From Cryptosporangium phraense (GTDB taxonomy: Bacteria > Actinomycetota > Actinomycetes > Mycobacteriales > Cryptosporangiaceae), in assembly GCF_006912135.1 (NCBI RefSeq), contig NZ_VIRS01000037.1:1-64000 (forward strand): a stretch of 64,000 nt of DNA. Reading direction: 5' to 3'. Below are positions 3,703-49,487 of this stretch, in pieces (the first letter of the stretch is position 1; every line of letters starts with the position of its first letter). The translations under genes and the position numbers were made by a program. The notes below the pieces were generated by a model, which saw only the letters and a program-made list of their open reading frames with translations, searched no databases and was not told the origin of the DNA.

Positions 3703-3732
3703 CCACACGGAAATCCGACCGAAAAGGTTCAC
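3703..3732 (-). promoter_or_regulatory. ECF-sigma-type promoter element, copy 1 of 3
   Basis: On the minus strand this reads GTGAACCTTTTCGG, seven variable bases, then TCCGTGTGG. The same 30-bp arrangement occurs before eccD and eccC. A -35 GAACC and -10 CGTGT separated by 16 bases fit promoters of extracytoplasmic-function sigma factors. It overlaps the stop codon of the giant gene and ends 34 bases before the GTG of the downstream gene. No expression data support it. Confidence 0.6.
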
Positions 3733-6700
3733 GAAACGCCCGAGGAATCCACCGCCGCCCGGTCCGCGCCGGCCGGCAGCTGACGCACGCCGGTGGGCGT
3801 GACGAGCGCCCAGCCCACCGCCAGCGGCACCAGGATCCGGATACCGTGCTGCACCGCCAGCTGCTGGTACTGCTGCGGGGTCACGCCCGGCCACGGCACC
3901 CGGAAGATCACCAGCGCCCCAGGAGAAACCCGCGGAAGCAGGCCGGTCAGCGTGGCGATCTGGCCACCCGGCCGCGGATCGGTGTTCTGCCCGATCACGA
4001 TCGTCGGCGGGTCGTCCGGGGAGGCTGGCGCGAACGCGTTCAGGCCGGTCCCACCCTCCGGGCGGCCGATCCACAGCAGGTCGTCGCGCCGGTGGACGCC
4101 GAGCGGCAGGCCGAGCTGCGCGCCGGTGTCGATCGCGTCGGTGACCGCGGCGATGTCCAGCGCGGCCCCCACCGGGCTGACCCGGGGACCGGCCCGGTAG
4201 ACCGTCCAGCCGGTGGGGCCCAGCGCGGCGACCGTCGCCCCGACGGCCGCGGCCTGCTGGGGCCAGGCGGGGCTCGCGACCGGGTTGAGCAGGACGATCA
4301 GCGTGTCCCGGCGGGCGGGACCGGCCGCGTTCAGCACCGCGTTGACCGCGGGCGTCGGATCCGGCAGGCCGGGCCCGGCGTAGACGAACACGGTCGGGCC
4401 GGTCCGGGACGCGGCCGCGTCGAGCCAGGCCGTGTGGTGGGCCGCGTTGTTCGGCGGCTCGTTGACCCAGACCGTGTTCCCGTCCGCGATGGCGCCCGGC
4501 GGCAGCCCTTCCGTCCACGGCGGGACGGCCGGGGCCACGAGCGCGGCCGGCGTCGGCTCCCCGGCGAATGCGGACGTGCTTCCGTCCGGGTGGTGCACGA
4601 CGCCCCCGGCCACCACCATCGCCCCGTGCCGGATCGCCAGGTTGCGCAGCGTCGAGAAGGCCTGCACGCCCACCGGCCGGGTCATCAGCACGATCGGCGC
4701 CTCCTCGACGGTCAGGCTGTCCAAGGTGGCGTCGAGCGAGGCCAGCGGGTTGGCGATGTCACCGACCACCACCACCGCGTTCTCGAACCCGGCCACGATC
4801 GGCGCGACCCACTCGGCGTCGAACGCCCCCAGCACGATCGCGCCGTCGGCCGCTTCCGAGGCGAAGTCGGGCAACGCGTAGGGCTCGATCGGCGACGTCA
4901 CCACCGGCCCCAGGCTCGGCCCCCTCCCGTTCGCCCGCACCAGGAACCACTCCGTGCCCGGCGGCGACACGAGCGCGCCGTCCGGAATCTCGTCCGGATG
5001 CTCGACCTCGGCCTCCCGCACGCCGATCACCGTAAGTCCGGGCAGCTGCCCCAGCACCCGGAGCGCGTCGCGCTCGCGCGGCGACACCACGATCACCAGC
5101 GGATCGACGGCGGTGGCCAGCAACGGCTGGAGGTCCGAGGCGACCAGGTCCAGGTCGTCGCTGTTGATGACGACGGTCAGCCCCTCCCGGGTCGCCGCGA
5201 ACGCGTCGAAGAAGCCCTCCTCGGTGGTCGACGCCGGATGCGCGCCGATCCGCAGGTGGTTGGTGTACCCGACGGTGTGGAGGCCCAGCCGCGGCTGCCA
5301 GCGCGTCCGGCCGAACCACTCGACCAGCATCTGCTGGATCCGCTCGCTGCCCCCGCCCGGCAGCAGCGACCGCACGGCCTGGAACGCGGCCAGCTCGGCC
5401 GCCTGATCGGCGACGCCGAGGTGCTGCCCGATCGTCTGCGACGGCCCGTAGGCACGCGTCCGGTCGACGCCTCCGACCAGGCCGGCCGCCAGCCGCGCCT
5501 GCAGCTCGATGACGCCGATGTCGAGGCTGCCGCCCCACTGCCGGATCTCGACGTGCTGGCGGGGCGGCGGCGGTTCGGACCACATCGCGTCGCTGAGGTC
5601 ACGCACCACCGACACGAGGTTCAGCGCGTTGTACCGGGCCTCGCCGGTGAGCGCGGAGAGCCGGTCCTCGTGGGCCTCGAGCAGGTCGCCGTCGGCGTCG
5701 TCGGGGACGTGGTAGCCCTCCGACGGCTCCAGCAGCGGACGGCCGTAGTGGACTCCCCGGTGGTAGCGCGAGCCGGGCACGACGCTCAGCCGGTACAGCG
5801 TGTCCTGGACCGACGCGAACCGGCCCTCCAGCGCCGCCAGCCCGCCGATCGGGGTGTCGCCCCCGACCAGGTGGTCGACGTCCACGTGGACGTGGCCGCC
5901 GGTGCGGGCGGTGGCGACTCCGCCGTGGCGGCGCACGATCGCGGTGGCCAGCGCGATGTTCCAGTAGGTCTCCGGGGTGCTGGGGAGGATCGGCGAGACG
6001 ATCTCGCCGTCGACCGAGCTGTCGAGCTCCAGCCGCCAGCCGTCGCGGCGCGTGGTGTAGCCGGCCCGGCGGGCCGAGCCGTACGCGTTGACCTCGGCGT
6101 TCTCGGAGAGGCCGAACCGCTCCAGGTCGGCGGCGATGCGTTCGAGGCGCTCGGTGCGTTGCTCGTCGGTCAGCGGCGGGACGAAGTCGAACTCCAGCTC
6201 CAGTCCGATGTCCCGGCCGGTTCCGTCGAGGTCGGGGTCGGTGCGGGGGTCGGAGTACGGCAGCAGGGATTCCTGCCGGATCCAGGTGACGAGCTGCGCC
6301 TCGGTCGCGTCCGGGTTGGTCGGGTCGAACCCGTCCGGCAGTTCGACCTCGTCGAGGTCCATTTCGACGTCCGTATCGACGTCCATTTCGACGTCCATTT
6401 CGACGTCCATTTCGACGTCACTGGGCTCGCCGTCGGCGGAGTCCACCGAAGCCGGGGCCGCCGGAACAGGAGCCGGGTCCCAGGCGGTCAGGGGCAACGG
6501 CGCCGGCGGGCGGTCCAAGCGTCCGACCCGGCGGGACGAGCCCGGCTCCGGAGCCCGGCGCATCGCGGTCAGCGTCACCCGCCCCCGCGCCACCGCCGGG
6601 ATCCAGACCGTGTCCACGGTGGCCGCCACCGAAGCCAGCCCGGCGTCCCCGGGCACCGCCTGCTGGCTGGCCCGCACCAGCACCGCCGTGCTCACCGGGA

Positions 6701-9700
6701 CCTGCACGGTGAGCACCGCGTGCCCGGCCGGAATCACCCCCGGCGCCACCAGCGACGCCTCCAGCCGCCCCTGCGCCCCGGTCGTGTCCGGCACCCCGGC
6801 CGCGTCCACCGGAACTACGACGAACGCCTCCCGGATCGGCGCCGCGTTCAGCACCACCACCGGCCCGATCCCGGCGATCCCGTGCGGCACCGGCGTCGGG
6901 GCCGTCCCCGGCACCCGCCGGGGCGTCATCGGCACCGCGTTCGGATCGCCCGGAACCGGCGCCACCGACCGCACCCCGTGCAACCCGGCCCCGTCGATGT
7001 CGGTGAGTGCGTCGAACCCCTCCGGGCTCTCCGGCAGGAACAGCTGCCAGCTCTCCTCGTCGTCGGTGCGCAGCCGCTGCGGGCCCGACGTCAGGTGCAC
7101 CTTCACCGGCGGCGCGAGCACGGGCAGGTCGGTCACCGACGCCAGCCGGGCGGCGAGCCCGCCGGTGATCGACCCGGTACCGCACGAGACCAGCGTGAGC
7201 CGCTCGACGCCGTCCAGCCCGTGCTCCAGCGCCCGCTTCAGGTTCTCCGCGTCCAGCCGCACGAACCGCTCGGAGCCGTCCGGCCGGGTCACCGACGCGA
7301 TCACCGACAGCCCGTCGCCGTGCACCACGACCGGCAGCGACCGATGACCGTTGACCCGGGAGAACCGCAGGAAGTCGGCCGACGTGATCCGCCGGTGCGT
7401 CTCCGCGGTGACCAGCGCGACCCCACCGTGCGCCACCGGGCGCAGCGCCAGCGGATGCCCGTCCGCGAGCACGACCCCGTTCGGTCCCCTGGTGACGGTC
7501 GCGAACGGCGCCGCGTCCATCTCGGCCGTCGACAGCGTCACGGTCTCGGCGGCCTGGATCGCGGCCCGCAGCCGGTCGGCGGTCTGCCGGGCGTCCCGCA
7601 GCGCGGTCGCGGTGTCGGCCGCCGCCCGGGTGAGCACGTCCGACGAGCGGGTGAGGACACCGTCCAGGTGCGCGCGGAGGTTCGTGACCTGCGTGAGCGT
7701 CGCCGCCGCCCGGTCGGCCCGCAGCCGCCGGTCGGCCGCCGCGTGCAGGTCGTCCTGCACGCGGGCGTCCAGCTCGGTGAGCACCGGGCCGTACGGCGGG
7801 GCGCCGTGCCGGAGTGTGAGCGCGGCGGTGATCGCGTTCCGGCGGTTCTGGGCCTCGGTCTCCGCGGTCCGCGCGTCGGTGGCCGCCCGGGTGGCCTGGG
7901 CCGGGTCGAACCGGCCGGTCACCCCGTCGGCGGTTCCGATCTGGTCCCGGAGCGTCTGCGTGAGGCCGTTCGCGGCCTGCTCCAGGGCGGTGTGCTGCGG
8001 GTCGGCCAGGTATTGCTCGGTAGCCGCGAGCGCGTTCTCCAGCCGGGTCAGCGCCCGCCGGGCCGCGTCCAGCCCAGCCGGGGTGGTGAGGTTCCGCGTC
8101 GCGGTGTCGGCCGCCGTCTCGGCCGCGGTCAACGGCCCGCGCGCCTCGTCGTGGCTGATCCGGTAGGCGGTCACCGGCCCCGGCAACTGTCCGCCGGTCA
8201 GGCCGACGACGCCGGGCAGCGCGGTCGCCAGCCCGTCGTGCCAGCGCCGCCCGTCCCGGTGCGCGGACCGGTGCGCCGGCCGGTCGAGCACGCCGTCGAT
8301 CGCCGCCCCGGTGCCGACCGCCGTGTCGGTCCACTGAGGGTCGCGCCGGGCCGTCCACTCGGCCGAGGTGACCGTCCGCCCGTTCTGCTCGACCTGGGCC
8401 AACCCCTGCAGGTCGGGCGTCAGGTTGGTCAGCAGGTGCTCGGCCGCCGCCTCCAGCTGGGCCGCGACCGCCGGGTCCGCGGTCGGCTCGATCCGGATCA
8501 CCGGTCCACTCGGGAGCGGCGGGGACGACGCCGGCGCCGGCTGACGCGAATCCCGCAGCGTGAAGCCACTCGGCGTCGCGTCCAGCGTCACACCGGGCAG
8601 CGCGGCGATGACGTACGAGCCGTTCGACGCCGTGATCCCGTGCCCGCCGACGCCCCCGGGCGCCCCGGTCAGCCAGGTGTTCACGGCCCGGTCGTCGCCG
8701 TGCTCGGGGGTGCCGATGAGCTGCCCGGGCGGGGGCGGCCGGTGCGTGAACCGGGTCGGCACCGGCGTCCAGCCGGGCTCGCGGGCCGGGTCGAGCGCCG
8801 ACGCCGGCACCACGGTCGAGGACGTGACCGGCGCCCCGGTCAGCACCGCGACCGCACCCGGGTTCACCGGCGCGGTGTCGAACTGGATCGACGTCGGCAC
8901 CGGCCAGCCCGGCGGCGTCCGGAGCCCGGCCAGGCCGGTCAGGAACGCCTGGACGTCGAAAGCGGTGACCCCGGCCGCGGCCCGCAGTCGGGCGGTGCCG
9001 TCCGAGGGCAGCGCGGTGAGCGGCACCGGCGCGGCCGGCGGAGTGCGGGTCAGCACGAGCTCGCCGTTGGCCACGTCCAGGTGCAGCCCGGCCGGCACCG
9101 GGATCGCCGCCATCGACGCCGGGTCGCCCAGCCGCTCGCGCCAGCCGGTCAGCCCCAGCTGCTCGGTGTCGCCGCTCCACAGCCGGAACAGCGCGGCCTT
9201 CGGGAGCACGACCGAGCGGGCCTCGCTGGGCAGCGTCGACTCGACGGTCATCGTGCGGTTCGCGTGCCTGGTCGGCGTCACGGTCAGCTCGACGTCGGAC
9301 GCGTACAGGAACGACCAGCCCTTGTGCTTGCCCTTGCGTCCGTCGCCGATGCCGCCGGTCTCCGACGTCCCCTGCTGCCCGGCCGACTGGCGTCCGACGC
9401 CGATCGACGGCTCGTGCCGTCCGGTGTCGAGCGGGTTGCGCTGGGCCTCGACCGGGAGCACCTCGCCGGTCCGGGCGGCGAACCGGCCCTCCAGGAACGT
9501 CTCCCGACCGCGCTCGGTGCCGACGCGGTGGGCCTTGCCGTCCTCGGACTGCTTCTCCAGCTCCAGACGCTCGCTGTGGTCGATGAGTATCGGCCGGTCG
9601 CGCAGCCGGGCCTCGATCGTGAAGTCGCCGAGCTCGGTGGTGAACAGCCCGTCCCGGAAGATCGTCCCGGGGTCGACCTCGCGGGTCAGCGCGGCCCCGA

Positions 9701-12700
9701 GCAGCGCGGCGAACGTCGAACCGTCGGTGAGCTGGTCGATCACCAGGTCGGCGTCCGAATCCTCGGTGAGGTCGGACGGCCGGCGGGGGCCGGCGAACGC
9801 CTCTTCGATCAGCGTCCCGAGCTCGGCCGCTCCGTGCGCGCCCTCGATCCGGAAGTCCATCCCGTCGGGAAACGTCCAGGCCGTGCCGTCGGCCGGCCGG
9901 GTCACCCGGGGCGGGGCGGGCGCCGCCACCACCGACCGGGGCGCGGGCCCGGCCGCGAACAGCGCCCGGATCTCCGGGGCCTTGTCGACCAGCGTGTTCG
10001 GCACCGACACGGTCAGGCCGCCGACCTTGGTGATGAGGTCGCTGGCGAACCGCTGCACCCGCCAGGACCGCGCGACCGTGTGCACGTTCAGGCCGGTGGC
10101 GGCCAGCGCCAGCCCGAGCCGGTTCGGGACCCGGCGGCGGGTGATCCTGATCCGGTAGTCGAGGTCGGTGACGAACGCCTCGGTCGGGTCGGACTTCTCC
10201 GCGTACTCCGACGTCCCCTTGATCTCGCTGTCCCGGACCGACTCCTCGTGGATGCCCAGGTTCGCGCCCGCCCGCGCCTCCGACACCACCGACTGCAGGC
10301 CGTTGTCGCCGGTCAGCCGGGCCCCACCGATGTAGCCGAAGCCGCCGGCCAGGTTCCACAGCCGCCGCTTGACCTTGGTCACCTCGGTGACGTCGGTGGC
10401 CGCGGTGAACGTCGACGTGGTCTGGCCGGCCGCGTTCCCGGTCGGGGCCTGGCGGGTGTTGAGCTGCGTCGCGACGAGTTCGACGGTCACCTTCTCGTCG
10501 TAGAGCCAGCCGCGCTTGGTGAAGCGGTCCTTCATCCCGCCGTCGAACAGGCCCTGCGCCCCCGACCGCATCCGCCGCTTGCCGGTCAGCTTCCGCACGC
10601 TGTCGACGATGTCGTCGTAGAGGTGCGCCGGGACGTCCCGGTCGGCGTTGTCCAGCGCGGTGCGGATCTCGGCGTCGTCCAGCCGGGTGGAGCTCCTGAC
10701 CGTCGACAGGCCCAGCATCCGGTGCAGGTAGGGCGGGGCGATCCGGTGGCCGGCCGGGGCCGGCGGGTTCGCGACCGCCACCGGCGGCGCGGCCGGGTTC
10801 ACCCGCTGGGCCGCGACCTGCCGGATGATCCGGTCGGCCTCGGCCCGGCTCACCTTGAGCAGCGCGCCGGCCGGGATCGTGACCGACGTCGAGACCCGCC
10901 GTCGGTTGTGTCCCCAGACCGTCGGCCAGATGTTCTGCGTCTTCACCTGACCGGTGAAGGTGAGGGTGACGGTCGCGAGCAACCGGCTGGTGTCCTGCTG
11001 GAGGACGTCCCGGCGCGCCTCGGTGTGGCTGAGCTCCCGTTCGGTGCGTTCCGACGTTCCGCCGGACCACCCCTGCTGCAACCGCGGTAGTCCTTGGTGG
11101 ACGTCCCGGGGACGGCTCTTGTCCCGCTCGACGAGATCGGTCGCCAGCGATTCGACGACGGCCAGTTCGACGCCCCGGTCGCGCCGATCCGAGCTGTCGG
11201 TCTGGTGGGTGACGTCGTCGGAGCGGTAGAGCGTGTGGCCGGTGCCGTCGGTCTCGCTGATCACCACCGGGTCGGACAGCTCGACCTCGACGTCCAGGTT
11301 GCCGAGCAGGTCGGTGAGGTGGCCCTTGCGCAGGACGTCGGCCGGGGTGCCGTCGCCGTCCAGATACTCCTGGATCGCCGAACGGATCGCGTCCGGGGTC
11401 AGCCGGTCGAGGATCGCGGTCTGCGACGGCGTGCCCGGCTCGGTCAGCGCGGACGCCTCGTACGTGTACTGGCGCCCGCTCCGGCCCTGGATCGTGCCGC
11501 GCTGCCAGCCGCTCCACAGGCCACCGAGGCCGAGCAGCCGGCGCACCGGCTGGGCCTTGCGCACCCGCCGGGCTGCACCCGGTGCCGTCACCGGATCCTC
11601 GGTGAGCGACCCGGCCAGCGCGACGTCGGCGGCGACCATCGCCTCGGCCGGCACGTTGACGTCGTCCAGCACGAACGGGCCGTCCAGCGTGAACGCCCCG
11701 GGGTTGGCCGCGGGTGGGACGTCCTCCAGGCGCAGCTGGGGCGCGGTGGCCGCCGGGAGCACCGGGTTCTGGACGGCCCGGGTCACCGGCGGCACCGCGA
11801 GCCGCAGCGCGTCGGTGACGGTCAGCGTCGTCGGCGCCGGAGGCGCGGGCGCCGCGGCCGCCGCGGGGGCCGCCGCCGGTGCGGGCGCCGGGGCCGGGAA
11901 CGTCGCCGCGGTCGGGGCGGGCAGGCGCCGGCCCATCCGGCTGAACGGAGCGGCCATCGAGCTCGGCCGCTTCGGCGTCTCGACCTCGATCGAGTACGTC
12001 AGATCCGACGTGTACTCGTGCAGCGCGCCGTCGTACTTCTCCAGGTGACCGCCGGTCAGCGTGGTCACCCCGCCCATCCCCCGGCCCCGCCGGTAGAACC
12101 AGGTCGGTCCGAACCGGACGATGAACCCGCGGATCCGGTGGTGCCAGCCGGTCCGGGCGCCGAGCTCGAACGCGAACCCGGCCCGCCAGCCGCTGCCGGT
12201 GCTCGTGCCCTGCGAGTCGCGGTCGAGGTTCTGGACGACCTGCTCCAGCTGGGTGCCGGCCACCGGCCCCCGGTACGTGAACGGCGCGTTCGGCACCTGG
12301 GCCTTCACCCGCACCAGCACCGTCGAGGAGTTCGTGACCAGCCCGCGGGTGAACGACGACGGGCGGCGCAGCGGGATCGTGACGCCCTCGCCACGCAGCG
12401 TGGAGAACGAGCCGCGCAGCGCCGACTCGGTGACCTTCGAGACCAGCGCGGCCCGGTTGCGCAGCTGCAGCCGGGTCGGCTCGTGCCCGTCGCGGGGTAG
12501 CAGCTCGGGGTCGACCTCGACCACCGCTCGGACGGCCGCCTCGTACAGTTCCTGGCTACCCCGGACCTCGCGCAGGTCGGACAGCCCGATCGGCTGCCAG
12601 TTCCCGACCCGGGGCGCGAACGGGGACGTGGCCGGCACGGTCGCCGGGTCGGCCGGCAGCGGCGCGACGGCGGCCGGGGCGTCGGGATAGCCGAGCGCCC

Positions 12701-15700
12701 TGGCGTCGGCCGGGGTGATCCAGACTCGGGCCTTGACGACGCCGAGGTTCCGCGCGGGCGCGATGCCGGCCCCGGTCTCCACCCGGGTGCGGACGTCGAT
12801 CGGGATCTCGTAGAGCAGCAGGTCGCCGGTGACCTTGCTCTTGGTGTCCACCCGGGACGCGAAACCCCGGCCGTCGGAGTCGCCGGAGCGCTTCTCGGCG
12901 CCCAGGTTCGGGCCGACGCCGAACACGCCGAAGCTGGCCGGATTGTTCGGGGCCTCGGCGAACCCGACCATCGGGCCGCCGGTGACCGTGATCCGGCTGT
13001 TCTTGTCCCGCGAGCGCCCGAACGCGCTGGTGACGAAGCTGCGCAGCGACGACTCGTGGCGTCCCGCGGTGCGCCCGGTGGCCAGCAGCACCGGGGTGCC
13101 GATCGTCCCGTTCATCGTCGCGTAGCCGCGGGTGGTCGAGCGGAAGCCGTAGACCCCCTCGCGGTCTCGGGACGTGATCTTGTCCGACGAGTAGCCGGTC
13201 GTGGTCAGCGGCTCGAGGTTGCGGCCGATCTCGCCGACGAACTCCAGCGCGTGCTCGCGGTGCGGACTGCCGATCTTCTTGAACCCGGCCGGGAGCAGCT
13301 CGACGAACCGGTCGAACAGCAGCGCCGGCCGCCCCGGAGCCGGGGGCTGGGTCAGCACGACGTTCTCGACGACCATCGTCGACGGCAGCTTCCAGCCGTC
13401 GGCCGGTGCGGCCACCGCGTTCGTCGCCGCGACCCGGGCCGGTGTCCGGGGCGAGACCGCGTTCTCCAGCGCGTGCGGCACCGCGATCGTGACGTCGGCG
13501 TTCATCGTGCCGGTGCTGGTCGCGGGCATCGGCACCGCGTACCGGGACCGGGTGCCGACGAGGTTGGCCCGGCGGTGGTGGACGTCGAGCTGGAGCGGGA
13601 GCGTGAGGTCGACCGGGCGGGCCTGGTTGGCCGCGTCGCCGTCGGCGGCGAACGTCATCTCCTCGTTCCGGCGGAAGCCGGACGCGGCCGTGACCGCGCT
13701 GCGCAGCCGGCTGCTCCACTGCGCGAACACCGAGACCATCCCGCCGACGCGCAGCGGCGCGCCGGGCGGGGCCCCGGTCGGGATGACCTCGGTGAACCCG
13801 GCGGCGGCGGTCCAGCCGGTCGCGGCCGACTCGCTCTGCGCGACCGCGCGCTGCGAGCGCTCCGGGAACCGGCGGTCGAGGTTGCCACCGGACGGGAAGT
13901 CGCCGGCCGCGTTCCGGTCGCTGGACGCCGAGCCGGGTGTCGTGCCGCGGGTGGCGGCGGTCGGCGGCGGGGCCGAGAGCACCAGCTCGATCGACCGGTC
14001 GCGGTGCGAGCCGTGGACGTCGTCCGGGAAGCGCGGGTTGATCGTGCGACGGAAACCGAGCCCGTCGGCGATGTCCCGAACGCCGTCGCGCAGGACGTCG
14101 TCCGGGAAGGCTTCGTCGATCGCGGCCCGCAGCGGGCCGTCGTCGACGCCGAGGTTGAGCGCCTGCACCGAGTCGAACAACCCCTGGCGGATCGCGTCGC
14201 CGTTGGAGAACCCGATCGTCCGGATGCTGGTGCCGACGTAGCCGCCCTCGCTGAGGATCCAGGGCACGGCCGGGAACGCCTGGCCGGGGTCGAGCAGCCA
14301 AGTGGCCCAGCTGTGCCCGGCCGCCTCGGTCGGCACCGGCTGGCTCGCCCCGGTGACGTCGGTGACGCTCACCGGCAGCGTCGGGCCGATCGGTGTCGTG
14401 CTGCCGTCCGGGTCGAACAGGATCCAGCGGCCGGTCGGCGGGATGTCCGGGCGCAGCACGCCGTCGGCGTCCACCGCGATCGTGCTGACGAACCCGTTGA
14501 ACTGCGGCGCGGAGCTGGTCGTCGACTGGAACACGACGCCGGCCGGGGCCAGCACCGGGGTGCCCAGCGCCCGGGCGACCTCGGCCGCGATGCCGTTCGT
14601 ACCGGTCTCGCACACGACCAGCCGGATCGGACGGGTGTCGCCGGCCGGCCGGTGGGCGCGGATGCGCTCGACGATCTCGTCGGCGCTCAGGCCGCTGTGC
14701 GCGACGAACGTGTACGCGTCCGGGTCGGGGGGCAGCGTCCGGGCCACGCGTACCTCGGCGTCGCCGCCGACGACGTGCCCATCGGGGCGGGACGGGTCGG
14801 GTCCGAGCGGCGTCACGTCAGTGCTGTCCTCGAAGGTGTCGTCCAGGGACACGATCCGGTCGGAAACGTGCCCGCCGACGTGCTGGGCGACCACGTCGGC
14901 GATCGTGGCCGGGGCCAGCACGTCACCACCCGGGACCAGCATCACGCGGTCCCGGGTGTAGACCAGCCAGTGCGCGCCGTCGTCCAGCCGGGCGGCGACG
15001 ATCACGTTGTTGTCGCGGGCCATCGCGCCGAACCCGGCCGCGTCGAGGTCCCGCCCGGAGGCCGGGGCGGGGGCGATCACCAGCGGCCAGATCGGTGCGT
15101 CGCCCCGCGTCCCCAGCGTCCGGCCCAGCGCAGTGGTCACCCGGCTGACGTCGGCCGGGCCGAGGTGGCGGGGCATCACGACCGCGAAGGGAACGCCGGT
15201 GTGGAGGGCGTCCCGGTAGGCGGTGCGGGCCTGCTCGGAGTCGGCCTGGCCGGCCGTCCAGAGGATCCGGTCGGTCAGCATCATCTGGGCGGCCAGGTTG
15301 AACCAGGCCTGCCCGAACCGCACCGGCTGGTTGGACGAGTCGATCCGGTACAGGCGGTTCGCCTGCCCGTCCGGCGTGATGACGATCCCGTAGGAGTGGT
15401 GGGTGACCTCGAGGAACGTCAGCGTGACGCCGTGCCGCCGGGCGGCGGCGATGTCGGCCGCCCGGGTGGCCGCGGACGAGGGCCGGCTGACGAAGACCGT
15501 CGCCCCGCCGTCCGGGAAGGCCTCGTCGACCCGCCCGAGCGAACCCTCCAGGTACCGGGGATCGGAGCGGTCGGGCCCGAGGACGACCGTCGGTCCGGTC
15601 CGGAACGGGGCCACCCCCAACGCGGCGCCGAGCACGTCCGACGGTGGGTTGCTGCCGAGCAGGACGGCCGACTCGTGCCGCCGGAAGCGGCTGGGCAGCG

Positions 15701-27700: not shown

Positions 27701-30700
27701 CGGCGGCGATCCGGTCGAGCGTCTCCCGCCGCTGGGCCGGCGTCAGCGAGCTGGGCAGGTCGAACTCGAGCTCCAGGCCGAGCGTCGGGCCGCGGCCGTC
27801 GACGTCCGGATCGGCGTCGGGCAGGCCGTAGGGCAGCACGGACTCACTGCGGGCCCAGGCGATCAGCTGCTCGGCGGTGGCGTCGGGGTCGGTGGGGTCG
27901 AAGCCGTCGGCGTGGATTCCGTCGGTGGTCACCTGTTCCGAGCGACCGTTGGCGTCGGCGGCGGCGAGCTCGCCGGCGTCGAGATCGTTGAGCGTGTCGA
28001 AGCCCTCGCCGTCGAGGGCGTTGGGCGGGAACGCGACCCAGGGGACGCCGCCGGCCGTGTGGATGCCGTCCGGGCCGACGCGGATGTCGGTCTGCGGGGC
28101 CAGCACGACGAGGTCGGTGACGTCGGCCAGCTGCTGGGCGAAGCGGGAGGTGATCGCGCCGGTGCCGCAGGAGAGCAGCGTGATGCTGCGCTTGCCGGTG
28201 AGCGCGCCCCGGCGGGTCAGGAAGCCGGCCAGCTCGGCCGGCGGGAGCAGGACGAAGCGGGTGCTGCCGTCGGGCTCCGTCAGCGGCACCCGGACGTTCT
28301 CGCCGCGGCCGTGGACGGCGACGGTGAGGATCGTGGGGTCGCTGGACGGGACCGGGTTCGGGCCGAGGTCGGTGACCTCCTGGGCGGTGACCAGCGCGAT
28401 CCCGCCGTGGGGCAACGGGGTCGTCAGCGGCCGGTCGGTCGGCGACAGCGTGACGACCGGCAGGTCGGCCGGGTCGCTGTCGCTGAGCGTGACGCCCCGG
28501 GAGCCTTCCCCGCCGGAAGTCGTCGCGGCGGCCGACGCGGCAGCGGCGGCGGCGATGTCTCGGCTGAGCTGGTTCCGGGCGGCCCGGGCGTCGGTCTGCA
28601 GCTGGGCGGCGGCCGCGTCCGGGGCCACGACCGCGTTGCGGATACGGGTGTCCAGGTCGGCGAGCCGGGCCTGCTCGTTCCGCAGGTCGGTCGCGGTCGT
28701 CTGCAGCGCGTCGACCGCGTCGGACCGGGTCTGCGCGTCGGTGACGTCGGTCCCGGCGTCCTGCAGCACGGTCGTGAGCCGGGTGCTCGGGGCGCGCAGC
28801 GCGTGCCGCTGGGTCACCGCGGCCTGGATCCGGGTGCGCCGGGCGGTCGCGTCGGCCAGCTCCTGGTGCACCGCGGTCACCGCCCGGCCGAGCTCGCCCT
28901 GGTCGATGTCCCGGTCGATCCGGACCGACTCGTCGAGCTGGTTGGTGATCGCCCCGTGGGCCTGGTCGAGGCCCCGGTGGGCCGCCGGGTACTGGGCCAG
29001 GGCCGCGTCCAGCCGGTCGAGCGCGCCCTGCGCGGTGGCGGCGTCGGCATTCTGGGCCTGAGTCAGTGCGGCCTGCAGCTCGGCGTGCGCGGCCAGGAAG
29101 TCGGTGACCGCCTGGGGCACCACGATCGGGTTCTGCGTCAGGTCGACGACCCCGGCCAGGTCGCGGCCGACGTTCGCCAGCCAGGTGTTCGCCTCGCGGA
29201 ACGCGGGGTCGGCGTCGAGGTCGTCGAGCGTCCGGTTCGTCGTCGGGTCGGTGAAGGCGGCCGGCAGCGCGGGCGCCCCGCCGCGGGTGGCCGTCCACTC
29301 GGCCGACGTCGTGATGTCCCCGTCCTGGGCGACGTGCGCGAGGTCGGCCAGGTCGGGCGTCAGGTGGGCCAGCAGGTGCTCGGCCGCGTCGTCGAGGCGC
29401 TGCTGCAGCGCCGGGTCGGCCGAGGCCTCGATCAGGACGATCGGCCCGCCCGGGTTGGCCACCATCGGCGGACGCTGGACGACATCGGGCGTCCGGAGAG
29501 TGAAGCCGGTGGTGGTGGCGTCGAGCACGATGCCGCCGAAGCCCGCGATCTGGTAGGAGCCGGGCCGGCCGTCGACCGGGGTGATCCCGTGGCCCGCGGT
29601 GAGCCAGCCGGTCGTCGCGCGGAACCCGGTCGAGGACGGGAACGGCTGGCCCGGCTGGTACGTCACCTCGGCCGGGACCGGGTTCCAGCCCGGGTCGCGA
29701 GCCGCGTCGGCCCCCGGCGGGACGGTCAGCGGCATCGCGACCGGCGCCGGGAACGCCGACGGGGTGGCCGTCCCGCCCTCGAACGTGATCACGGTCGGCG
29801 GCGCGGCCAGCTGGCCCAGGAAGAACGTGACGTCGGCGTCGCTGACGCCGGGAGCCACCGTGAGCCGGGCGGTGCCGTCCGAGGGAAGCCCCAGCAGCGG
29901 CAGCGGCACGGCCGGCGGGGCCCCGGGCGCGAGCCGGATCGCCCCGTCGGGCGTCACCGACGCCTGGACGTTCGGGGGCATCGCGGTGGCCGGGATCTCC
30001 TCCGGGTTGCCCAGCCGCTCGGGCCAGCCGTTCAGGCCGAGCTGCTCCATGTCGGCCGCCCAGACCCGGAACAGCGCCCCGTTCCGGATCACCACCGACA
30101 TCGCCTGGCCGGGCAGGGCGGTCTCGACCATCGCGGTGCGCTGCGAGTGCTTCGGCCGGATCGTCAGCTCGACGTCGGACGCGTACAGATAGGACGCACC
30201 CTTGTGCTTGCCCTTGCGCCCGTCGCCGAGGCCGCCGGTCTGCGAGGTGCTCTCCTGGCCGGCGGTCTGGCGTCCGGCGCTCCCGGACGGCTCGTGCCGG
30301 CCGGTGTCGAGCGGGTTGCGCTGGGCCTCCGCGGGCAGCACTTCGCCGGTCCGGGCCACGACCCGGCCCTCGACGAACGTCTCCCGCCCGCGGTCGGTGC
30401 CGACGCGGTGGGCCTTGCCGTCCTCGGACTGCTTCTCCAGCTCCAGCGTGTCGGTGGTGTCGACGAGCGTCGGCCGGTCGCGCAGCCGGGCCTCGATCGT
30501 GAAGTCGCCGAGCTCGGTGCTGAACAGCCCGTCCCGGAAGATCGTCCCCGGGTCGACGCCGTCGCCGGTGAGCGCGGCCCCGAGCAGCGCGGAGTAGACG
30601 CCACCGTCGGTGAGCTCGTCCAGGACGAGCGCGGTGTCGGGGTCGTCGGTCAGCGCGGACACCACCGGCTGCGGGGCGGGCAGCGGGCCCACGAACCCCG

Positions 30701-33700
30701 GCGGGCGCTTGCCGACCCGCGCCGGCGGCGGCCCGGAGAACGCCCGGTCGATCAGGTCGCGGAGGACCTTGGCCCCGTGGCCGCCCTCGATCCGGAAGTC
30801 CATGCCGTCGGGGAACGTCCACGACGTGCCGGGCGCGGGCCGGGTGGCCTTCGGGCGGCTCGCGGGCGGGGCCGGCTGGAACCGCCCGGCGTCCCCGACG
30901 TCGGCGAGCGCGTTGTCGAGCGCGACCGGCTTGTTGGCCAGCGAGGTCGGCACGGCGACGGTCAGCGCGTCCGCCTTGTCGATCGGCCCGCTCTCCGAGC
31001 GCTGCACCCGCCACGACCGGTCCGCCGACCGGAGGCCGACGCCGAGCGTCAGGCCCAGCCGGCTCGGCACCCGGCGGCTGGTGACCTTGACCTGGTACTG
31101 CAGGTCGGAGACGAACCCCTCGGTCGGTCCGGACTTCTCCGCGTACTCCGACGTCCCCTTGATCTCGGTGTCCCGTACCGACGTCTCCCGGACGCCGACG
31201 TTCCCGCCCGCGCGGACGTCGGGCCCGATCGCCTGCAGGCCGTTGTCGCCGGTCAGGCGGGCGCCCCCGAGGTACCCGAGGCCGGCCGAGCCGCTGAAGA
31301 ACCGCCGCTTGATCGCGGTGATCTCGTTGATGATCGACGACGCGGTGAACGTCGACGTGGTGGTGCCGGCCGGGGTGCCGCCGGTACCGCGGGTGTTGCT
31401 CGGGACCGCGACCAGCTCGACCGTGACCTTCTCGTCCCAGAGCCAGCCCGACCGGGTGAAGTGGTCTTTCATCCCGCCGTCGAACAGGGCCTGGGCGCCG
31501 GAGCGCATCCGGCGCTTGCCGGTCAGCTTCTGGACGCTCGTGACGACGTCGGAGCGCAGCCGCTCGGGGACCGGGGCGGTGCCCTGGCCGAGCGCGGTGA
31601 GCGTCTCGGTCTCGCCCAGCCGCTTCGAGTCGCGGACGTTGGACAGGCCGAGGATCCGGTGCAGGTAGGGCGGTGGGCGGCGGCCGTTGCCGACCGCGGG
31701 GGTGAACGGGGCCGGGGTGTTCAGCGGGACGAGCGGGATGCCGTCGTCCTCCGTGAACAGGTTCGCCGCGTCCGTGTAGAGGGCCTCTTCGCGCTGGTCG
31801 GCGACCTGCTGCATGATCCGGTCGGCCTCGGCCCGGCTGACCTTGAGCAGCGCACCGGCCGGGATCGTGACCTTGGTCGTGACGGTCTCGGTGGTCTTGC
31901 CGCCGAACAGGTTCGGGGTGCTGACCTCACCGGTGAACGTCAGCGTGATCGTCGCCAGCAGGCGGCTCGTCGGTTGCTTCTCCAGCACGTCCCGGCGGGC
32001 CTCGGTGAGGCTCACCTCGCGTTCGGACCGGTCGGACCGCCCCTGCGCGTACCCCTGCTGGGCCCGGGGAAGCGCCTGGTGGACGTCACGGGGGCGGCTC
32101 TTGTCGCGTCCGGTGATGTCGGTGGCCAGCGACTCGATCACCGCCACGTCGACGCCCTTGTCGCGCCGCTGCGAGGTGTCGGACTGGTGGCTGACGTCGT
32201 CCGACCGGTACAGGTTGTGCGCCGGGTTCGTGCCACCGGCGTCGGTCTCGCTGACGATGTGCGGGTCGGAGAGCTCGGCGGTCATCGTCAGCGAGCCGAG
32301 CAGGTCGGTGAGGTGGCCCTTGCGCAGGACGTCGGTCGGGGTGCCGTCGCCGTCGAGGTACTCCTGGATCGCCGAGCGGATCGCGTCCGGGGTGAGGCGG
32401 TCGAGGATCGCGGTCTGGGACGGGGTGCCCGGCTCGGTCAGCGGCGAGGCGTCGAACGTGTAGCGCTGGCCGCTCTGGCCGTCGATCGTGCCGCGTTTCC
32501 AGCCGCTCCAGAAGTTGCCCAGGCCGCGGAGCGAGCGGATCCGCTGGGGGCGCAGGAGGTGCGTGCCGGGCGTCCGCTCGACCGTGACCGACTGGGCCAG
32601 CGCGACCTCGGCCGCTGTCGTGACCTCGGCCGGCGTGTGGACGTCGTCCAGAAGGAACGGACCGTCGAGCGTGAAGGCGTCCGGATTGGTGTCGGTGGGG
32701 GCGGGGGTCTGGTCCTGGAGTTCGACGGTCGGGGCCGCGGTCGGCAGGCCGGGCGGGGTGAAGGCCCGGCTGACCGGCGGGACCGCGATCCGGAGCGCGT
32801 CCGGGATCGTGAGGGTGGTGGGCGGTGGGGCCGGCGCGGCCGCGGGCGCGGGGAACGTCGCCTGCGTCGGGGTGACCCGGTTGCCGATGCCGCGGAACGG
32901 CGCGGCCATTCCGCTGGGGCGGTTCGGTGTGGTGACGTCGATGGAGAACGTCAGGTCGGAGGTGTACTCGTGCAGCGTGCCGTCGTACTTCTCCAGGTGA
33001 CCGCCGGTCAGCGTGGTGACGCCACCCATCCCCCGGCCCCGCCGGTAGAACCACGTGGGTCCGAACCGGACGATGAACCCGCGGATCCGATGGTGCCAGC
33101 CGGTCCGGGCACCGAGCTCGAACGCGAACCCGGCCCGCCAGCCGGTGCCGACGCTCGCCCCGCGGGCGTCCCGGTCGAGGTTCTGGACGACCTGCTCGAG
33201 CTGGGTCCCGGCGACCGGCCCGCGGTAGGTGGGCGCGGTGTTCGGCAGCTGGGCCTTGACCGTGACCAGGACCGTCGAGGAGTTCGAGACGAACCCGCGG
33301 GTGAACGACGACGGACGTTTGAGAGGGATCGTGATGCCCTCGCCGCGCAGGGTGTGGAATGAGCCGCGCAGCGCCGACTCGGTGACCTTCGAGACCAGCG
33401 CGGCCTGGTTGCGCAGCTGCAGCCGGGTGGGCTTCTGGCCGTCGCGGGGCAGCAGGTCGGCGTCGACCGCGGTGACCGCCTGGACGGCCGCGTCGTAGAG
33501 CTGCTGGCTGCCCCGTACCTCGCGCAGGTCGGACAGCCCGATCGGCTGCCAGTTGCCGACCCGGGGCGCGAACGGGTTGGTGTTCGGGGTCGCCGCCGGG
33601 TCGGCCGGCAACGGGGCCGCGGCCGGGACGTCGGGATAGCCCAGCGCCCGCGCGTCGGCCGGGGTGATCCAGACCCGGGCCTTCACCGCGCCCAGGTTCT

Positions 33701-36700
33701 GCACGGTTCCGGCGTCGGCGTCGCGGTGGACCTGGCCGTCGACGGTCAGCGGGATCTCGTAGAGCAGCAGGTCGCCGGTGACCTTGCTCTTCGTGTCGAC
33801 CCGGGAGACGAACCCGCGGCTGTCGGACTGCCCGCTGGACGTGTCGGCGCTGAGGTTCGGGCCGAAGCCGAACACGCCGAACGCGGCCGGGTTGTTCGCC
33901 GCCTCGGCGAACCCGATGATCGGGCCGCCGGTCACGGTGATCCTGCTGCTCTTGTCGCCCGACCGCCCGAACGCGCTGCTCACGAAGCTGCGCAGCGACG
34001 ATTCGTGGCGCCCGGACGTCCGCCCGGTCGCCAGCAGCGTCGGCGTCCCCACGGTGGCGGTCAACGTGGCGTAGCCACGGGTGGTGGAGCGGAGGCCGAA
34101 CGCGCTGCCGTCACCCTTGGAGACGATCTTGTCCGACGAGTAACCGGTCGTGGTGAGCGGTTCGAGATTGCGGCCGATCTCGCCGAGGAACTCCAGCGCG
34201 TGGTCGCGGTGCGGGCTGCCGATCTTCCGGAAGCCGGGCGGGAGCATGTCGAGGAACCGGTCGAACAGCCCGTCCGGACGCCCGGGCGACGGGGTCTGGG
34301 CGAGCACGACGTTCTCGACGACCATCGTCGACGGCAGTTTGTAGCCACCGGCCGGAGCCACGTGGCCCGGCGCCGGGACCGGCCGCACCGCGCTGTCGAG
34401 GTCGTTGGGCAGCGCGAACGTCACGTCGGCGTCGATGGTGGCCGGGTTCGTGCGGCCGGTCGTGCTGACGCCGTCGGCGGCCCGGGTGTTGACCGTGACC
34501 GTGAGGGCCAGCGTCGCGTCGACCGCCTGGGAGCGGCCCGGGCCGTCGCCGACCGGAGCGAACGTCATCTCCTCGTTGCGGCGGTAGCCGGACGCGGCCG
34601 CGACCGCCCGGCGGAGCCGGTTGCTCCACTGGGCGAACACCGACACGATGCCGCCGACCTTGACCCCGGCCGACGCCGGGTTCGGCGCCGGGGCGACCTC
34701 GCTGAAGCCGAGCGCGGCGGTCCAGCCGCTGGTCGCGGACTCGCTCTGGGCGACCGCGCGCTGCGACCGCTCGGGGAACCGGCGGTCGAGGTTGCCGCCC
34801 TCGACGAAGTCGTTCGCGGCCGTCCGGTCGCTGGACGCGGACGCGGTCGTGCGGCCGCCGGTGGCCGCGGCCGGCGGCGGAGCCGAGAGGACCAGCTCGA
34901 ACGACCGGTCGCGGTGCGATCCGTTCTCGTTCGGATTGATCGTGACCCGGAAGCCGAGGCCGTTGACCATGTCCCGGACGCCGTCGCGGAGGACGTGGTC
35001 GGGGAGTTGGGTCCTGATGAGGTCCTCGAGACGGGCCCGGTCGGGGCCGAGGTTCAGCGTGTCCAGGTACTCGACGATGCCCATTCGGATCGCGTCGCCG
35101 TTGTGGAGACCGACCGTGCGGATGCTGGAGCCGAGGAACCCGGGGTCGGAGAGGATCCAGGGCAGTTGGGCGTAGGGGACGCCGGCGCCTAGCCAGGTGG
35201 CCCATTCCTGGGTGGTCGCGTCGTCGGGCGCGGGCTGGGACGGGCCGGTGAGGTCGGTGATGCTGACCGGGAGCGTCGGGCCGAGCGGGGTGCTGTCGCC
35301 GTCCGGGGTGAACAGGATCCAGTGGCCGTTCGGGGGTACGTCGGGAGCGAGGGTGCCGTCCGGACGGAACTGGATCGAGCTGACGAAGCCGTTGTGCTGG
35401 GGGGCCTGGCTGGTCGTCGACTGGAAGACGATGCCGTCCGGGGCGAGCACGTCGGTCTGCAGGAGCCGGGCGACCTCGGCGGCGACGCCGGTGGTGGCGG
35501 TCTCGCAGACGACGAGCCGGATGGGGCGGGTGTCGGTGGGGGATTTGAGGCGGCGGATGCGGTCGGCGATCTGGGTGGCGGTTTCGCCGCTGTGGGAGAC
35601 GTAGGTGTAGGAGTCGGGGTCGGGTGGGAGGGAGCCCGCGAGGTCGGCCTCGGCCGGCCCACCGACGACGTGCCCGTCGGGGCCGAGGGGGGTGACGGCG
35701 GGGGCGGCGTGTTTGAGTTGTTGGGGGACTACCGGGAGGCCCAGGCGGGTGCTGAAGCGGTCGGCGACGTTCTGGAGCCAGCCGGCGGCCGCGGTGGCGT
35801 CGAGCCCGGGCCGGACCTGCTCACTCATGTACCGGCCGGACTTGTCGTTCACCGTCCACGAGTTGATCGCCGGGTCGAACCGGAACTCCCCGGCGATCCG
35901 GCCCCTCCCCGGCGCCGACACCCCGGACTGGTCGAACGCGACCGCCAGGCCGGTATGCCCCAGGCCGATCAGCGACTGGGTGAGCGTCGCCTCGGTCAGG
36001 TCGGGGTCCTTCTCGCGCATCGCGTCGAGCAGGTCGTAGAACTGCTCCTCGCCGACGATCCGCCGACCGTCCTCGCTGCCGAGCATCACCTCCCCCGAGT
36101 CGGTGACCAGGAAGAGCCACACCGCGCCGGTGTCCTGCACGAGACGCTCGGGGTTGATCTCGTCCAGCCCGACGTACAGCGGGTTCGGCCGGACCGTGAG
36201 GTCGTCGGCGTACTGCTCCTCGCTCTTGACGCGCTTCGGCGGGACCGCGTCGCCGTAGGTCGGCCGCAGGGCGGCGTCGGTCTCCGGGGCGACCGGGGCG
36301 ATCGGCCCGGGCTCTTTGGCGGTGGGCTCCGGGTTCTTGCTCTTCTTGTCTTTCTTGGCCGGGGCCGGCGCTGGGGCCGCGGAGTGTTTCAGCTGCTGGG
36401 GAACTACATCGACGCCGAGGTGGGCGCCGAAGCGCTGAGCGACGTTGCCGAGCCAGCCGGCGGCGACGTCCCGGTCGAGCCCCGGGCGGACCGAGTCGCT
36501 CATGTACCGGCCGGACTTGTCGTTCACGGTCCACGACTCGGTGTCCGGATCCCACCGGAACTCCCCCGCCGCCCGCCCCAGGCCGGGCTCCGACGTTCCG
36601 GTGCTCCGGTCGAACGCGACCGCCAGGCCGGTGTGCCCGAGCCCTACCAGGGATTGGGTCAGCTCCACCTCGGTGAGCTTCGGATCCTTCTCCTGCATCG

Positions 36701-39700
36701 CCGCGAGCAGCTCGTAGAACTGTTCGTCGCCCATCAGGCGGCGGCCGTCCTCGCTGCCGAGGATGACGTCGCCGTCTTCGGTGACCAGGTAGAGCCAGGT
36801 CGCGGTCTTGCTCTGGAGCATCCGCTCGGGGGTCATCTGCGTGAGCGGGACGAAGAACGGGTTGACCCGGACCGTTCCGTCGGCGTGCTTCTCCTCGGGT
36901 TTGATCCGCTTGGGTGGGACCGCGTCCCCGAACTCCTGGGTCAGCTGCTCCCGGATCTCGCTCTTCCGCTCGTCCGACACGCTCTCGGCGTCCGCCGTCG
37001 TCGTGTCCGGCACCGTCGCGTCGGCCGACGTAGGAGCCGCGGGCGCGGGCGCAGTTTGCGCGGGAGCTGTGGGCGCGGGGGCTGTCTGAGCCGGGGGCGG
37101 GGCCGTTGCGAGGGTGGCGGTGAAGCTGGAGAGGGGAGCCGGAGCGGGCAGGCGGGTGACGGCGCCCCGGCGCGAGACGGCCGACGGGGCCTGGCGGATC
37201 TCGCTGGTCGTGACGTCGCCCCGGCGCCCGAGCGGAATCCAAAGTTGCTGGTTGCCGACCGCCGGACCGGGCACGGAATCCCCCGGCACCGCCGCCCGGG
37301 TAGCCGCGGGCAGGACCGCCGTCCGGGCCGGAACCTGCACGGTGAGCAGCACCTGCCCCGGCGGGATCACCGACGGCCGCGCGGTCGACGCCACCACCCG
37401 GCCGTTGCGCCCCCCGGTGCGCGGCACGCCGTTGGCGTCCACTGTGGTCAGGACGAACGCGGTGACCGGCGCGCTGTTCAGGACGACCGAGTTCCCCAGG
37501 TTGGGGATCCCGTGACCGTCGAGCTGGACGACCGCGGTCGGGCGCGGGCCGCCCCGGGCGGTCGGCGCCCACGACGCCCAGGCGTGCGTCAGCGGGACGT
37601 ACGGGTTCGCCGTGACCGGCTGGGTCGGCGTGCTGACCGGCAGCCCGACGGTGTCCGCGACCGTCGCGTCGCCGATCGTCGCGGCGAGGTTCACCGGCAG
37701 CGTCGGGCCGATGCTCGTCGGGGGGAGCGACAGGTCCGGGGAGAACAGCACCCAGTCGCCCTTGGCCGGCAGCACCGGCCGCATCTCACCGGACTCGTCG
37801 ACCGTGGTCCCGGCCACGAACCCGTTGAACTGCGGAGCGGTGCTGGTGCGGGACTGGAACACGGTCCCGTTCGGCGCGAGCACCGGCACCCGCAGCCGAC
37901 GCGAGACCTCGGCCGCGACCGACCGAACACCGCCCCTACCGACGCCGCAGATCACGAGGCGGATCGGCCGCGTGTCGGCGGGGTCGCGCACACGCCGGAT
38001 CGCGGCGACGAGTTCGTCGGCGGTGCGCGGGTTCGCGCCGTCGCCGTGGCTCACGAACGTGTAGGCCGACGGGTCGCCCGGCAGGCCGGCGGAGATCGCG
38101 GACTCGGCCGGCCCACCCAGTACGTGCCCGTCCGGACGCGTGGGGTCGCTGCCCAGCGGTGTCGCGGCCGGGGCGTCCGGCGTGCCGGGGCTCGTGAGCG
38201 GATCGTCGGAGCGCCCGTCTCGCGCGAGGCTCGGAGTAGGGGTAGCGCTCACCGCGGAAGCCGCCGTCGTCGACGGCGTTCGAGTCGGAGTCGTCAGGGA
38301 AGAGTCGCCCGGGAGGCGCGTCGAGGAGGTCGTGGAGGTCGTGGCGGGAGCCGCCGTCTGAGAGGTGTTTGGGGTCTGAGCGGGAGTTGGCGTCGTCTGA
38401 GCGGGAGTTGGCGTCGTTTGAGCGGGAGTTGGCGTCGTTTGAGCGGAGGCCGGTGTTCGGGCGGGAATTGGCGTCTGGGCAGGGGTTGGGCGGGTTGGCG
38501 TCGAGGTGGAGGGGGTGGCCGTGGAGGAGGTGACCGGGCCGAGCTCACGCGGGGGCCCGGACCGGGGGAACACCGTCCACACCGGATCACTACCGCGGGC
38601 ACCGCGCCGAGGCTGCACCAGAGCGACGACCTCGGTGTCGCTGATCCGGCTGAGCGACGCCGCATAAGCCCGGGGCGTGGGGATGGGCTTACCGGTCGGG
38701 TCGGTCTGCGCAGCGAGGACGACCCGCTCCGGTGTGTTGCCGCCGACCTGGGAGGTGGCCGCGGCCTGGAATGCCTCGAAGGTAGTGCCGGTGGTAGGCA
38801 CCGCCACGACGAAGTCGGATGCCGACGCGTCGGGAGGAGCCCGGAACGTCCCGTCGGACGTAACGAAGGTGCCCGGCGCCGCCGCCTGAGCCGGTGCTGG
38901 CTCGGTGATCGTCGGAGAGGTGGAAGCCGATTTCCCGTCAGAGGACTGCGGGGCCGTGGACTCGGCCGGTGTGGAGTCGGTGGCCGACGTCGTCGATGGC
39001 AGGTCGGAGGTCGCTGGGTTGGTGCCCGTCGGAGTGGAGGTCGTGGAGACGGTCGTGGGCGTTCGGGTCGTGGAGGTGGTCGTGGTCGGGCTCGTGTTGG
39101 AGGTGGTCACCTGTTGCGGGCTGGTGGCAGTTCCCGACGTGGGCGATCCCGGAGTGGGGGTGACGCTCGTCGTCGACCCCGCCTTAACGCCACTCGCGGT
39201 GGATCCCGTGCTCGTAGCTCCGGTGCCCGTGGAGGGCGTTCCCGTGGAGGACGTTCCGGTCGAGGAGGCGCTGGTCGGCGAGGTGTTCGGGGGTGCGCCG
39301 GTCGAATGGGTGCCGGTTGCCGAGGTGGTCGACGGTGTGCCGGTCGGGAGGACTGTCGACGACGTGGTGTTCGACGAGCCCGTTGCCTCACCCTGAGAAG
39401 GGCCATCGTTCGCCGGCGTACCGCCCGGGACGGCCGTGGACGAGGTGGTACTAGCCGCCCCGGTCGAGGCCGTCCCGGTCGAGGCCGTCCCGGTGGAGGT
39501 GGACCCTGTCGACGTCCCCGTTGTCGGGGCGGTGACCGTGCTGCTGGTGGGCACGGGGACTGGTACGCCGGTCTGGGAGCCGGTCGTGATCGCTGTCGAC
39601 TGCGTCCCCGTGCCGGTCTGGGTTCCGGTGCCGGTCTGGGTTCCGGTGCCGGTCTGGGTTCCGGTCGTGGTCTGGGTTCCGGTGGTGGTCTGGGTGGTCG

Positions 39701-41084: not shown

Positions 41085-41121
41085 GCCAGGCACTCCCCTT
41101 CCCGGTCAAAAGGAACAACAC

Positions 41122-41613: not shown

Positions 41614-41622
41614 CGGTTCCAC

Positions 41623-48075: not shown

Positions 48076-48084
48076 GGTCAACGG

Positions 48085-49482: not shown

Positions 49483-49487
49483 GGGTT

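Follow-up and report, generated by a model that had tools for sequence, protein, structure and literature searches.

A 37.4-kb type VII secretion-linked gene in Cryptosporangium phraense that probably encodes a giant multi-warhead toxin polyprotein with putative amidoligase modules

The DNA analysed here (hereafter the window; 64,000 nucleotides, 74% GC by base counts and without any N) starts at one end of a contig (C37) of the draft genome of Cryptosporangium phraense, which comprises 8.46 Mb in 87 contigs. A run of type VII secretion system (T7SS) genes lies on the minus strand and, read from upstream, encodes EccD (48085..49614; PF19053 2.2e-83, together with PF08817), EccB (46687..48081; PF05108 7.9e-90), two WXG100-like proteins (46299..46616, PF06013 1.3e-5 and 25.8 bits, slightly below the cut-off of 27.3; 45996..46283, PF06013 3e-4 and 21.4 bits, below the same cut-off), a 128-aa protein with no Pfam match (45544..45930), a protein of 1,046 aa in which DUF6799 matches eight stretches (42385..45525), a YbaB-family protein that is a candidate chaperone (41945..42388; PF02575 1.6e-10), a 109-aa protein (41623..41952), a 166-aa protein (41122..41622), and finally the giant protein that is the subject of this report (3729..41084). 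The largest intergenic gap in the run is about 70 bp. The 1,046-aa DUF6799 protein is without any cysteine. The 109-aa protein corresponds in position to a 107-aa gene product of a Streptosporangium locus, with no BLAST match between the two.

Divergent from this run, an EccC-like ATPase of the FtsK/SpoIIIE type is encoded on the plus strand (49655..53578; PF01580 1.3e-82, three stretches), the span given being the part of the frame 48515..53578 that matches other EccC proteins, with an approximate start. It is 49–55% identical to the EccC of six related loci over all or most of the length, and 36% identical over the N-terminal third to that of a same-genus locus (G002:C7), the EccB and EccD of which show an identity of only 32–33%, leaving orthology of that locus unsupported. 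Beside the EccC-like gene, a 586-aa frame (53520-55280, plus strand) contains two stretches of the DM9 repeat (PF11901, 1.1e-38), a domain known mainly from animals. On the other side of the giant gene, the next gene (3..3668, minus strand) begins after about 60 bp and, because the window starts at the contig end, is cut (at least 1,222 aa), the giant gene itself being uncut. With EccB, EccD, an FtsK-type ATPase, and WXG100-like proteins as neighbors, the giant gene does lie at the end of a T7SS gene run, as the preliminary description made from the letters of the window had stated.

The minus-strand frame 3729..41093 consists of 12,454 codons, with a stop solely at its end. Translation from the GTG at 41084 would give 12,451 aa with a mass of 1.302 MDa, and translation from the GTG at 41093 would give 12,454 aa; the former is the likelier start, being well spaced behind the sequence GGGGAG, while the cysteine numbers used below are counted from the latter. 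The preliminary description had proposed a single gene of about 37.4 kb that is open for more than 12,400 codons and encodes about 12,450 residues, and the present counts bear this out. Chance can be ruled out as the origin of the frame, with a random stop probability of 0.0149 per codon and hence a ln P of −187 for no stop in 12,454 codons. Because DNA of high GC content also gives rise to long spurious frames opposite a gene, the longest in this window reaching 3,331 aa, the codon positions were examined. The third-position GC content is 0.89–0.99 in 48 of the 50 bins of 250 codons, with the two exceptional bins (0.83 and 0.78) both located in a Ser/Thr-rich linker (residues 501–1000), and the second position has the lowest GC content of the three everywhere but in this linker; the composition of the frame is coding-like. 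Furthermore, the third positions diverge most in four of the five pairs of duplicated modules compared, with 382, 338, and 591 differences at codon positions 1, 2, and 3 between the copies of the module termed B below, and with amidoligase copies 1 and 5 (142, 114, and 126) being the exception.

The draft state of the genome and the presence in the frame of two modules that are 75% identical could suggest that so long a frame is an assembly join or that internal starts give rise to a series of shorter proteins; there is, however, no internal stop, the longest exact repeat within the gene is 53 nt, and frames of the T7SS type with 7,156, 4,515, and 3,298 aa occur in other assemblies, so that we consider such an origin very improbable. 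On account of the 53-nt value, repeat-driven misassembly or collapse is unlikely and its simple form is rejected; an assembly join in the repeats was also a point on which the preliminary description had seen the single gene as vulnerable. Proteins of about 85,000 aa are reached in Omnitrophota. The view expressed in that description that bacterial proteins of the present size are rare holds as far as rarity is concerned, but they are not without precedent: among the giant actinobacterial multi-toxins described in 2012 is one of 13,652 aa, according to the part of that report drawn on throughout this text (Zhang et al., 2012; PMC3482391), and a size record can thus be rejected.

The N-terminus of the giant protein contains a WXG100_2 domain (residues 14–148; 40650..41054, on the minus strand as are all its modules) detected by Pfam (PF25547 3.1e-13, 50.4 bits against a cut-off of 27), so that the T7SS-type helical domain predicted there at the outset is recovered above the cut-off. 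In the translation, hydrophobic segments are seen by eye to follow this domain, and then a Ser/Thr/Pro-rich low-complexity linker (residues ~341–975; 38169..40073) delimited by eye and by codon GC. Polyketide and peptide synthetases are the commonest sort of huge bacterial protein, as far as the part of the source used here goes (PMC11573180), and the same genome has a nonribosomal peptide synthetase (NRPS) frame of 8,209 aa elsewhere (G000, contig C3, about 58000-82070; L105/L106). Pfam, however, finds no condensation, adenylation, ketosynthase, or carrier domain in the giant protein, and NCBIfam, covering residues 1–10,000, gives no match at 0.1; a giant of the synthetase type is rejected and is left with practically no probability.

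Five copies of a module with a conserved His/Cys pair were delimited by alignment, beginning at residues 975 (37689..38171; Cys1049), 1797 (35217..35702; Cys1863), 4205 (27966..28481; Cys4309), 8752 (14346..14840; Cys8828), and 11195 (6981..7511; Cys11304). Each precedes a block of the chain—in order, the modules M and N, a B module, an amidoligase block, a second B module, and a second amidoligase block. In an alignment of 14 copies from the giant protein and from three other genomes (G327, which is Streptosporangium pseudovulgare, G381, and G365), the His occurs in 12 of the 13 rows with letters at that place and the Cys in all but one of the 14 rows, the single deviating copy having lost both; five of the five copies in the giant protein retain the pair. 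Profile comparison of each of the two window subgroups with the G327 copies gave a single-comparison E of about 1e-6 and a probability of 82–83%, the link between the two subgroups being weak (33%). The sole family hint toward caspase-like peptidases is a subthreshold match to Peptidase_C80 in 2 of the 14 members (best E 0.11); Ntox37 matches three members (best 0.027) and DUF4347 two. The best match in the PDB (E 0.49) is an unrelated dehydrogenase, and no copy was found in plasmids. Thus, the motif, the strand order predicted by eye, and the Peptidase_C80 hint make these modules candidate caspase-like peptidases; a name that may fit them is the "lonely Cys domain" of NCBI.

With one copy as the query, 11 of 394 genomes of the class, including that of C. 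phraense, matched the His/Cys module. The matching frames of G365 and G381 are 2,919, 2,657, 2,060, and 3,298 aa long, and those of the other eight genomes 301–595 aa. By relative positions judged by eye, copies in G381 precede ADP-ribosyltransferase domains in a WXG100_2 protein, and one copy in G365 precedes a C-terminal DNA/RNA endonuclease, likewise in a WXG100_2 protein.

The amidoligase modules also number five: copies 1 (residues 4396–4775; 26769..27908), 3 (residues 6715–7095; 19809..20951), and 5 (residues 11587–11974; 5172..6335), the motifs of which are intact, and copies 2 (residues 5405–5665; 24099..24881) and 4 (residues 7727–8100; 16794..17915), which are degenerate. Copy 1, scanned alone, scores 22.4 bits against Amidoligase_2 (PF12224; cut-off 22), matches scanned inside long pieces score 17.4 and 15.4 bits and thus fall below this cut-off, and 11 of 11 members of the amidoligase alignment (A5) match the family at E ≤ 0.01, with 1.8e-20 being the best value; copies 2–5 were assigned by alignment and tree. 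GxExEF and GGHxHV, the motifs as read in this alignment and those we take to be the conserved acidic and His motifs of Amidoligase_2, are present in copies 1, 3, and 5 but lost from copies 2 and 4. A first search against the PDB found no match to the amidoligase, and another gave one match over 25 residues (7uek, E 0.006), with no stretch passing alone. The five copies of the window group together as a single clade (support 100/100) in a tree built from 22 amidoligase rows, with the degenerate copies 2 and 4 as sisters (100/99); the alignment and the tree thus show that the array expanded by in-frame duplication inside the gene and that two of the amidoligase copies decayed afterward.

A scan of contigs with two short patterns, by which more distant relatives may be missed, yielded 27 amidoligase loci, the 11 of which with the best E values (L035–L045) belong to Streptomyces (four), Kutzneria (one), Nonomuraea (five), and Streptosporangium pseudovulgare (one). 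In these 11 loci, the amidoligase match ends 34–66 residues short of the C-terminus; in the giant protein, the last intact copy ends about 480 residues before it. Six of the 11 are long proteins (Nonomuraea L039–L043 and Streptosporangium L045, which is the G327 locus), and of these six only the 4,515-aa protein of G327 scores over the cut-off for WXG100_2, with a weak match in Nonomuraea L041 (0.007), no detection in L039 and L040, and frames open at the 5′ side in L042 and L043. Judged by eye, L039 opens with helical and hydrophobic stretches of the same sort, and its gene is preceded by one for a YbaB protein. In the Streptomyces L035 and Kutzneria L038 amidoligase proteins, the two scanned whole, WXG100_2 has no match.

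The B module, of about 1,850 aa, is present in two copies (residues ~2035–3900, 29394..34991; and residues ~9001–10880, 8454..14093) found by self-comparison and alignment, which are 75% identical over a stretch of 648 columns and share 1,233 of 1,810 aligned residues overall. It has no match in Pfam or NCBIfam, and its best E in the PDB is 2.9. Searches of the 394 class genomes and of five genomes of the family found it in the genome of C. phraense alone, and a search of 200 genomes of the family of G327, with ten candidates scored, found none; a contig scan with two patterns of 7–8 residues returned 101 stretches with a pattern, none of them related. Since few candidates were scored per genome (three for the B module and four for the amidoligase), the class-wide counts are lower bounds, that of the amidoligase being at least 2 of 394. 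Self-comparison further revealed a module M at residues 1203–1318 (37140..37487), 50% identical to a second copy at residues 11413–11532 (6498..6857), a module N at residues 1388–1560 (36414..36932), 67% identical over 111 aa to its second copy at residues 1613–1790 (35724..36257), and a block (residues 4396–6600) that recurs roughly at residues 6715–8700. Fourteen copies of a repeat of about 100 aa were detected with an iterated HMM (3789..26441; i-Evalue 3.6e-12 or better); they lie in the regions that separate the amidoligases and again at the C-terminus, and look alpha/beta by eye. That these repeats are decayed caspase-like modules is put forward as a suggestion because the comparison of the two profiles gave a probability of just 13% (single-comparison E 5e-4). 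The next gene (3..3668) looks by eye as if it contained alpha/beta repeats of a similar kind, together with long repeats rich in Ala, Ser, and Asp, and the repeat HMM finds no copy of the ~100-aa repeat there.

The 12,451 residues of the giant protein include five cysteines (0.04%), and each is the conserved Cys of one His/Cys module. From nine neighboring proteins (34 Cys in 4,924 residues), 86 would be expected (Poisson log10 P −29.7), and from the NRPS of the same genome (24 Cys in the 8,023 residues fetched, 0.30%), 37, a shortage of about sevenfold. A second T7SS-type giant of this genome (6,345 aa; C11:136672-155706, L009/L010), which contains a YwqJ deaminase and a Gln_amidase, also has five, of which one is N-terminal, three are in the YwqJ-type deaminase, and one is in the Gln_amidase. 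A same-genus T7SS-type frame of 7,156 aa (G002:C7:286966-308433, L031/L032) has six, of which two are N-terminal and the remaining four fall at a motif, NC[AGI]D, that is repeated, these four being equal in number to its four Gln_amidase stretches. The cysteines retained in these giants thus fall for the most part at places with an expected catalytic role. Exceptions are the N-terminal cysteines of the second giant, of the G002:C7 frame, of G327 (two), and of G381 (two), and, in G327, one at position 2765 and one in the amidoligase. Each Nonomuraea frame contains one to three cysteines. An avoidance of cysteine by exported proteins has been described for Firmicutes, and because Actinobacteria are contrasted with them in the part of that study used here (PMC9974433), the depletion, although compatible with export, is taken as support and not as proof.

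These observations also bear on a rival view, in which the chain never leaves the cytoplasm or else is a reservoir of modules, mostly decayed and maintained by duplication, of which few parts are active. The motif residues are indeed gone from two of the five amidoligases, and the 14 repeats lack a recognized motif. Against a decayed or cytoplasmic chain stand a frame intact across 37 kb with coding composition, His/Cys pairs retained in every copy along with three amidoligase motifs, and a cysteine content of 0.04% as against the 0.30% of the NRPS, and we regard such a chain as distinctly unlikely.

The 166-aa protein encoded upstream of the giant gene has no Pfam match and is a candidate immunity protein. 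A homologue adjoins the amidoligase frame in 11 (L035–L045) of the 26 loci searched, namely the 27 amidoligase loci less one that is too short (L057), with E values of 1.6e-22 to 1.1e-31. Five other T7SS loci gave no homologue (best E 0.4); two of them (C11 of the same genome and G002:C7) had their large frames scanned with Pfam, and three (G002:C2, G001:C1, and G003:C17) were fetched in part. In the class, 11 of 394 genomes contain a homologue at E ≤ 0.001, with values below 1e-20 in C. phraense and G327, about 1e-12 in G293 and G200, and weaker in seven genomes. Because of these matches, and because the three flanks examined (those of the homologues in G293, G200, and G106) contain no amidoligase, the notion of a family strictly bound to amidoligases is weakened.

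The relatives of this pair of genes raise a further alternative, in which the chain is exported or surface-bound and acts on the cell's own envelope: the B modules would be structural, and the amidoligases would add amino acids to the wall or sheath or cross-link it through amide bonds. GATase_6 and GGACT genes belong to the genome context of the Amidoligase_2 family. In a Streptomyces anulatus locus (L036, 6196-12603), three amidoligase matches and a partner gene are accompanied by GATase_6 and GGACT genes; such a set, which could represent a metabolic pathway, does not look like a toxin locus, and the large B module, present in two copies, would also suit an envelope role. (The amidoligase frames of this kind have a GSGSRIDHQHH-like start in common.) Against a role in the cell's own envelope, the enzyme is carried at the C-terminal end of a WXG100_2 protein in Streptosporangium and of long proteins in Nonomuraea, deaminase, glutamine-deamidase, and ADP-ribosyltransferase domains are found on WXG100_2 proteins of the same genome and of other actinomycetes, and the spread is patchy, the B module being found in at least 1 of the 394 class genomes and the amidoligase hardly more widely. 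An envelope function is therefore judged unlikely.

We favor, with a probability of roughly 0.56, the reading that the giant protein is a T7SS-dependent multi-warhead polymorphic-toxin polyprotein that cuts itself. In the proposed mechanism, the WXG100-type helical N-terminus, possibly with the adjacent YbaB-like and small proteins keeping hold of it, would dock the chain on the EccB/C/D machinery, and the chain, its cysteine depletion directly observed, would be threaded out. The five caspase-like modules would then cut the chain and free the blocks, as suggested by their position before each block, their His/Cys pairs, and published precedent. By analogy with their family, the intact amidoligase blocks would inactivate a target inside a rival cell by linking an amino group to a carboxyl group on that target, and the 166-aa partner, to judge from linkage, would protect the producer or otherwise control the amidoligase. 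Against this reading, the C-terminus of the giant protein is a ~100-aa repeat without an amidoligase, and the partner gene lies upstream, so that the classical order of toxin last and immunity gene next is broken. Amidoligase and partner also occur together in the Streptomyces and Kutzneria loci without a WXG100_2 match (L035 and L038). A fuller version—that the 1.3-MDa chain is exported and cut by five caspase-like peptidases, with their active-site cysteines as its only ones, into separate effectors that include ATP-dependent amide-forming enzymes with a dedicated partner or immunity family and two 1,850-aa modules for delivery or killing—is tentative, being possible rather than probable.

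Overall, this is a real single gene linked to a T7SS, and it most likely encodes a toxin polyprotein with several warheads, belonging to a type described in 2012, to which the amidoligase warheads, the large B module, and the five-cysteine pattern are new. More specifically, what is new comprises the arrangement of five Amidoligase_2-like modules, three intact and two degenerate, within one T7SS-type chain; the coincidence of the sole cysteines of this chain with the conserved Cys of its caspase-like modules; and the presence just upstream of the putative partner gene with amidoligase-adjoining relatives. If the reading is correct, the protein would open two questions to testing, namely how long a chain type VII secretion can carry and whether giant toxins, as polyproteins, undergo self-cleavage once exported; five point changes at the five cysteines should abolish processing. 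With the amidoligase warhead and its partner, moreover, a toxin class known mainly for enzymes that cut or modify would gain a bond-making chemistry.

In the literature searched on amidoligases with polymorphic toxins, or with secretion systems and actinobacteria, no T7SS amidoligase toxin is found at the level of titles and the beginnings of abstracts, a body of text that excludes most subscription journals; in the parts of two articles used here (PMC4431377 and PMC12419801), an amidoligase is named in a reference only. Toxic enzymes linked to T7SSs in actinomycetes are known, an example in the portion of the source cited being an LXG-fused alarmone synthetase of Amycolatopsis (PMC12691689). 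The modules of the giant protein resemble the Amidoligase_2 family (PF12224) in sequence match and motif, and differ in being repeated within a giant of the T7SS type. The YbaB protein of the window is comparable, by family alone, to mycobacterial EspL, a YbaB-family protein within a T7SS locus that is proposed, in the part of the source used, to be a chaperone of Esp substrates (PMC6319747).

Among toxins, the closest in description are the giants of the SACTE_5178 type in the 2012 report, which are likewise actinobacterial and of comparable length and have, as the present protein probably does, several enzymatic and caspase-like modules; arrays of the latter in actinobacterial toxins were proposed there to yield several cleavage products (PMC3482391). 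Whereas those giants contain lethal-factor-like peptidases, ADP-ribosyltransferases, and MCF1-SHE, the present one contains amidoligases and two copies of the 1,850-aa B module. With T7SS (WXG100) polymorphic toxins, it has in common the WXG100-type N-terminus, the adjacent T7SS genes, and the varied warheads in related genomes; unlike them, it has no classical toxin at the extreme C-terminus, and its candidate immunity gene is upstream. The Streptosporangium pseudovulgare protein (G327/L045) has a WXG100_2 domain, His/Cys modules (four), an amidoligase, and a partner homologue, and its locus likewise has a YbaB gene and the 107-aa gene upstream, with EccD and EccC nearby; it differs from the giant protein of C. 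phraense in having one C-terminal amidoligase, the partner downstream, and no match to the B module.
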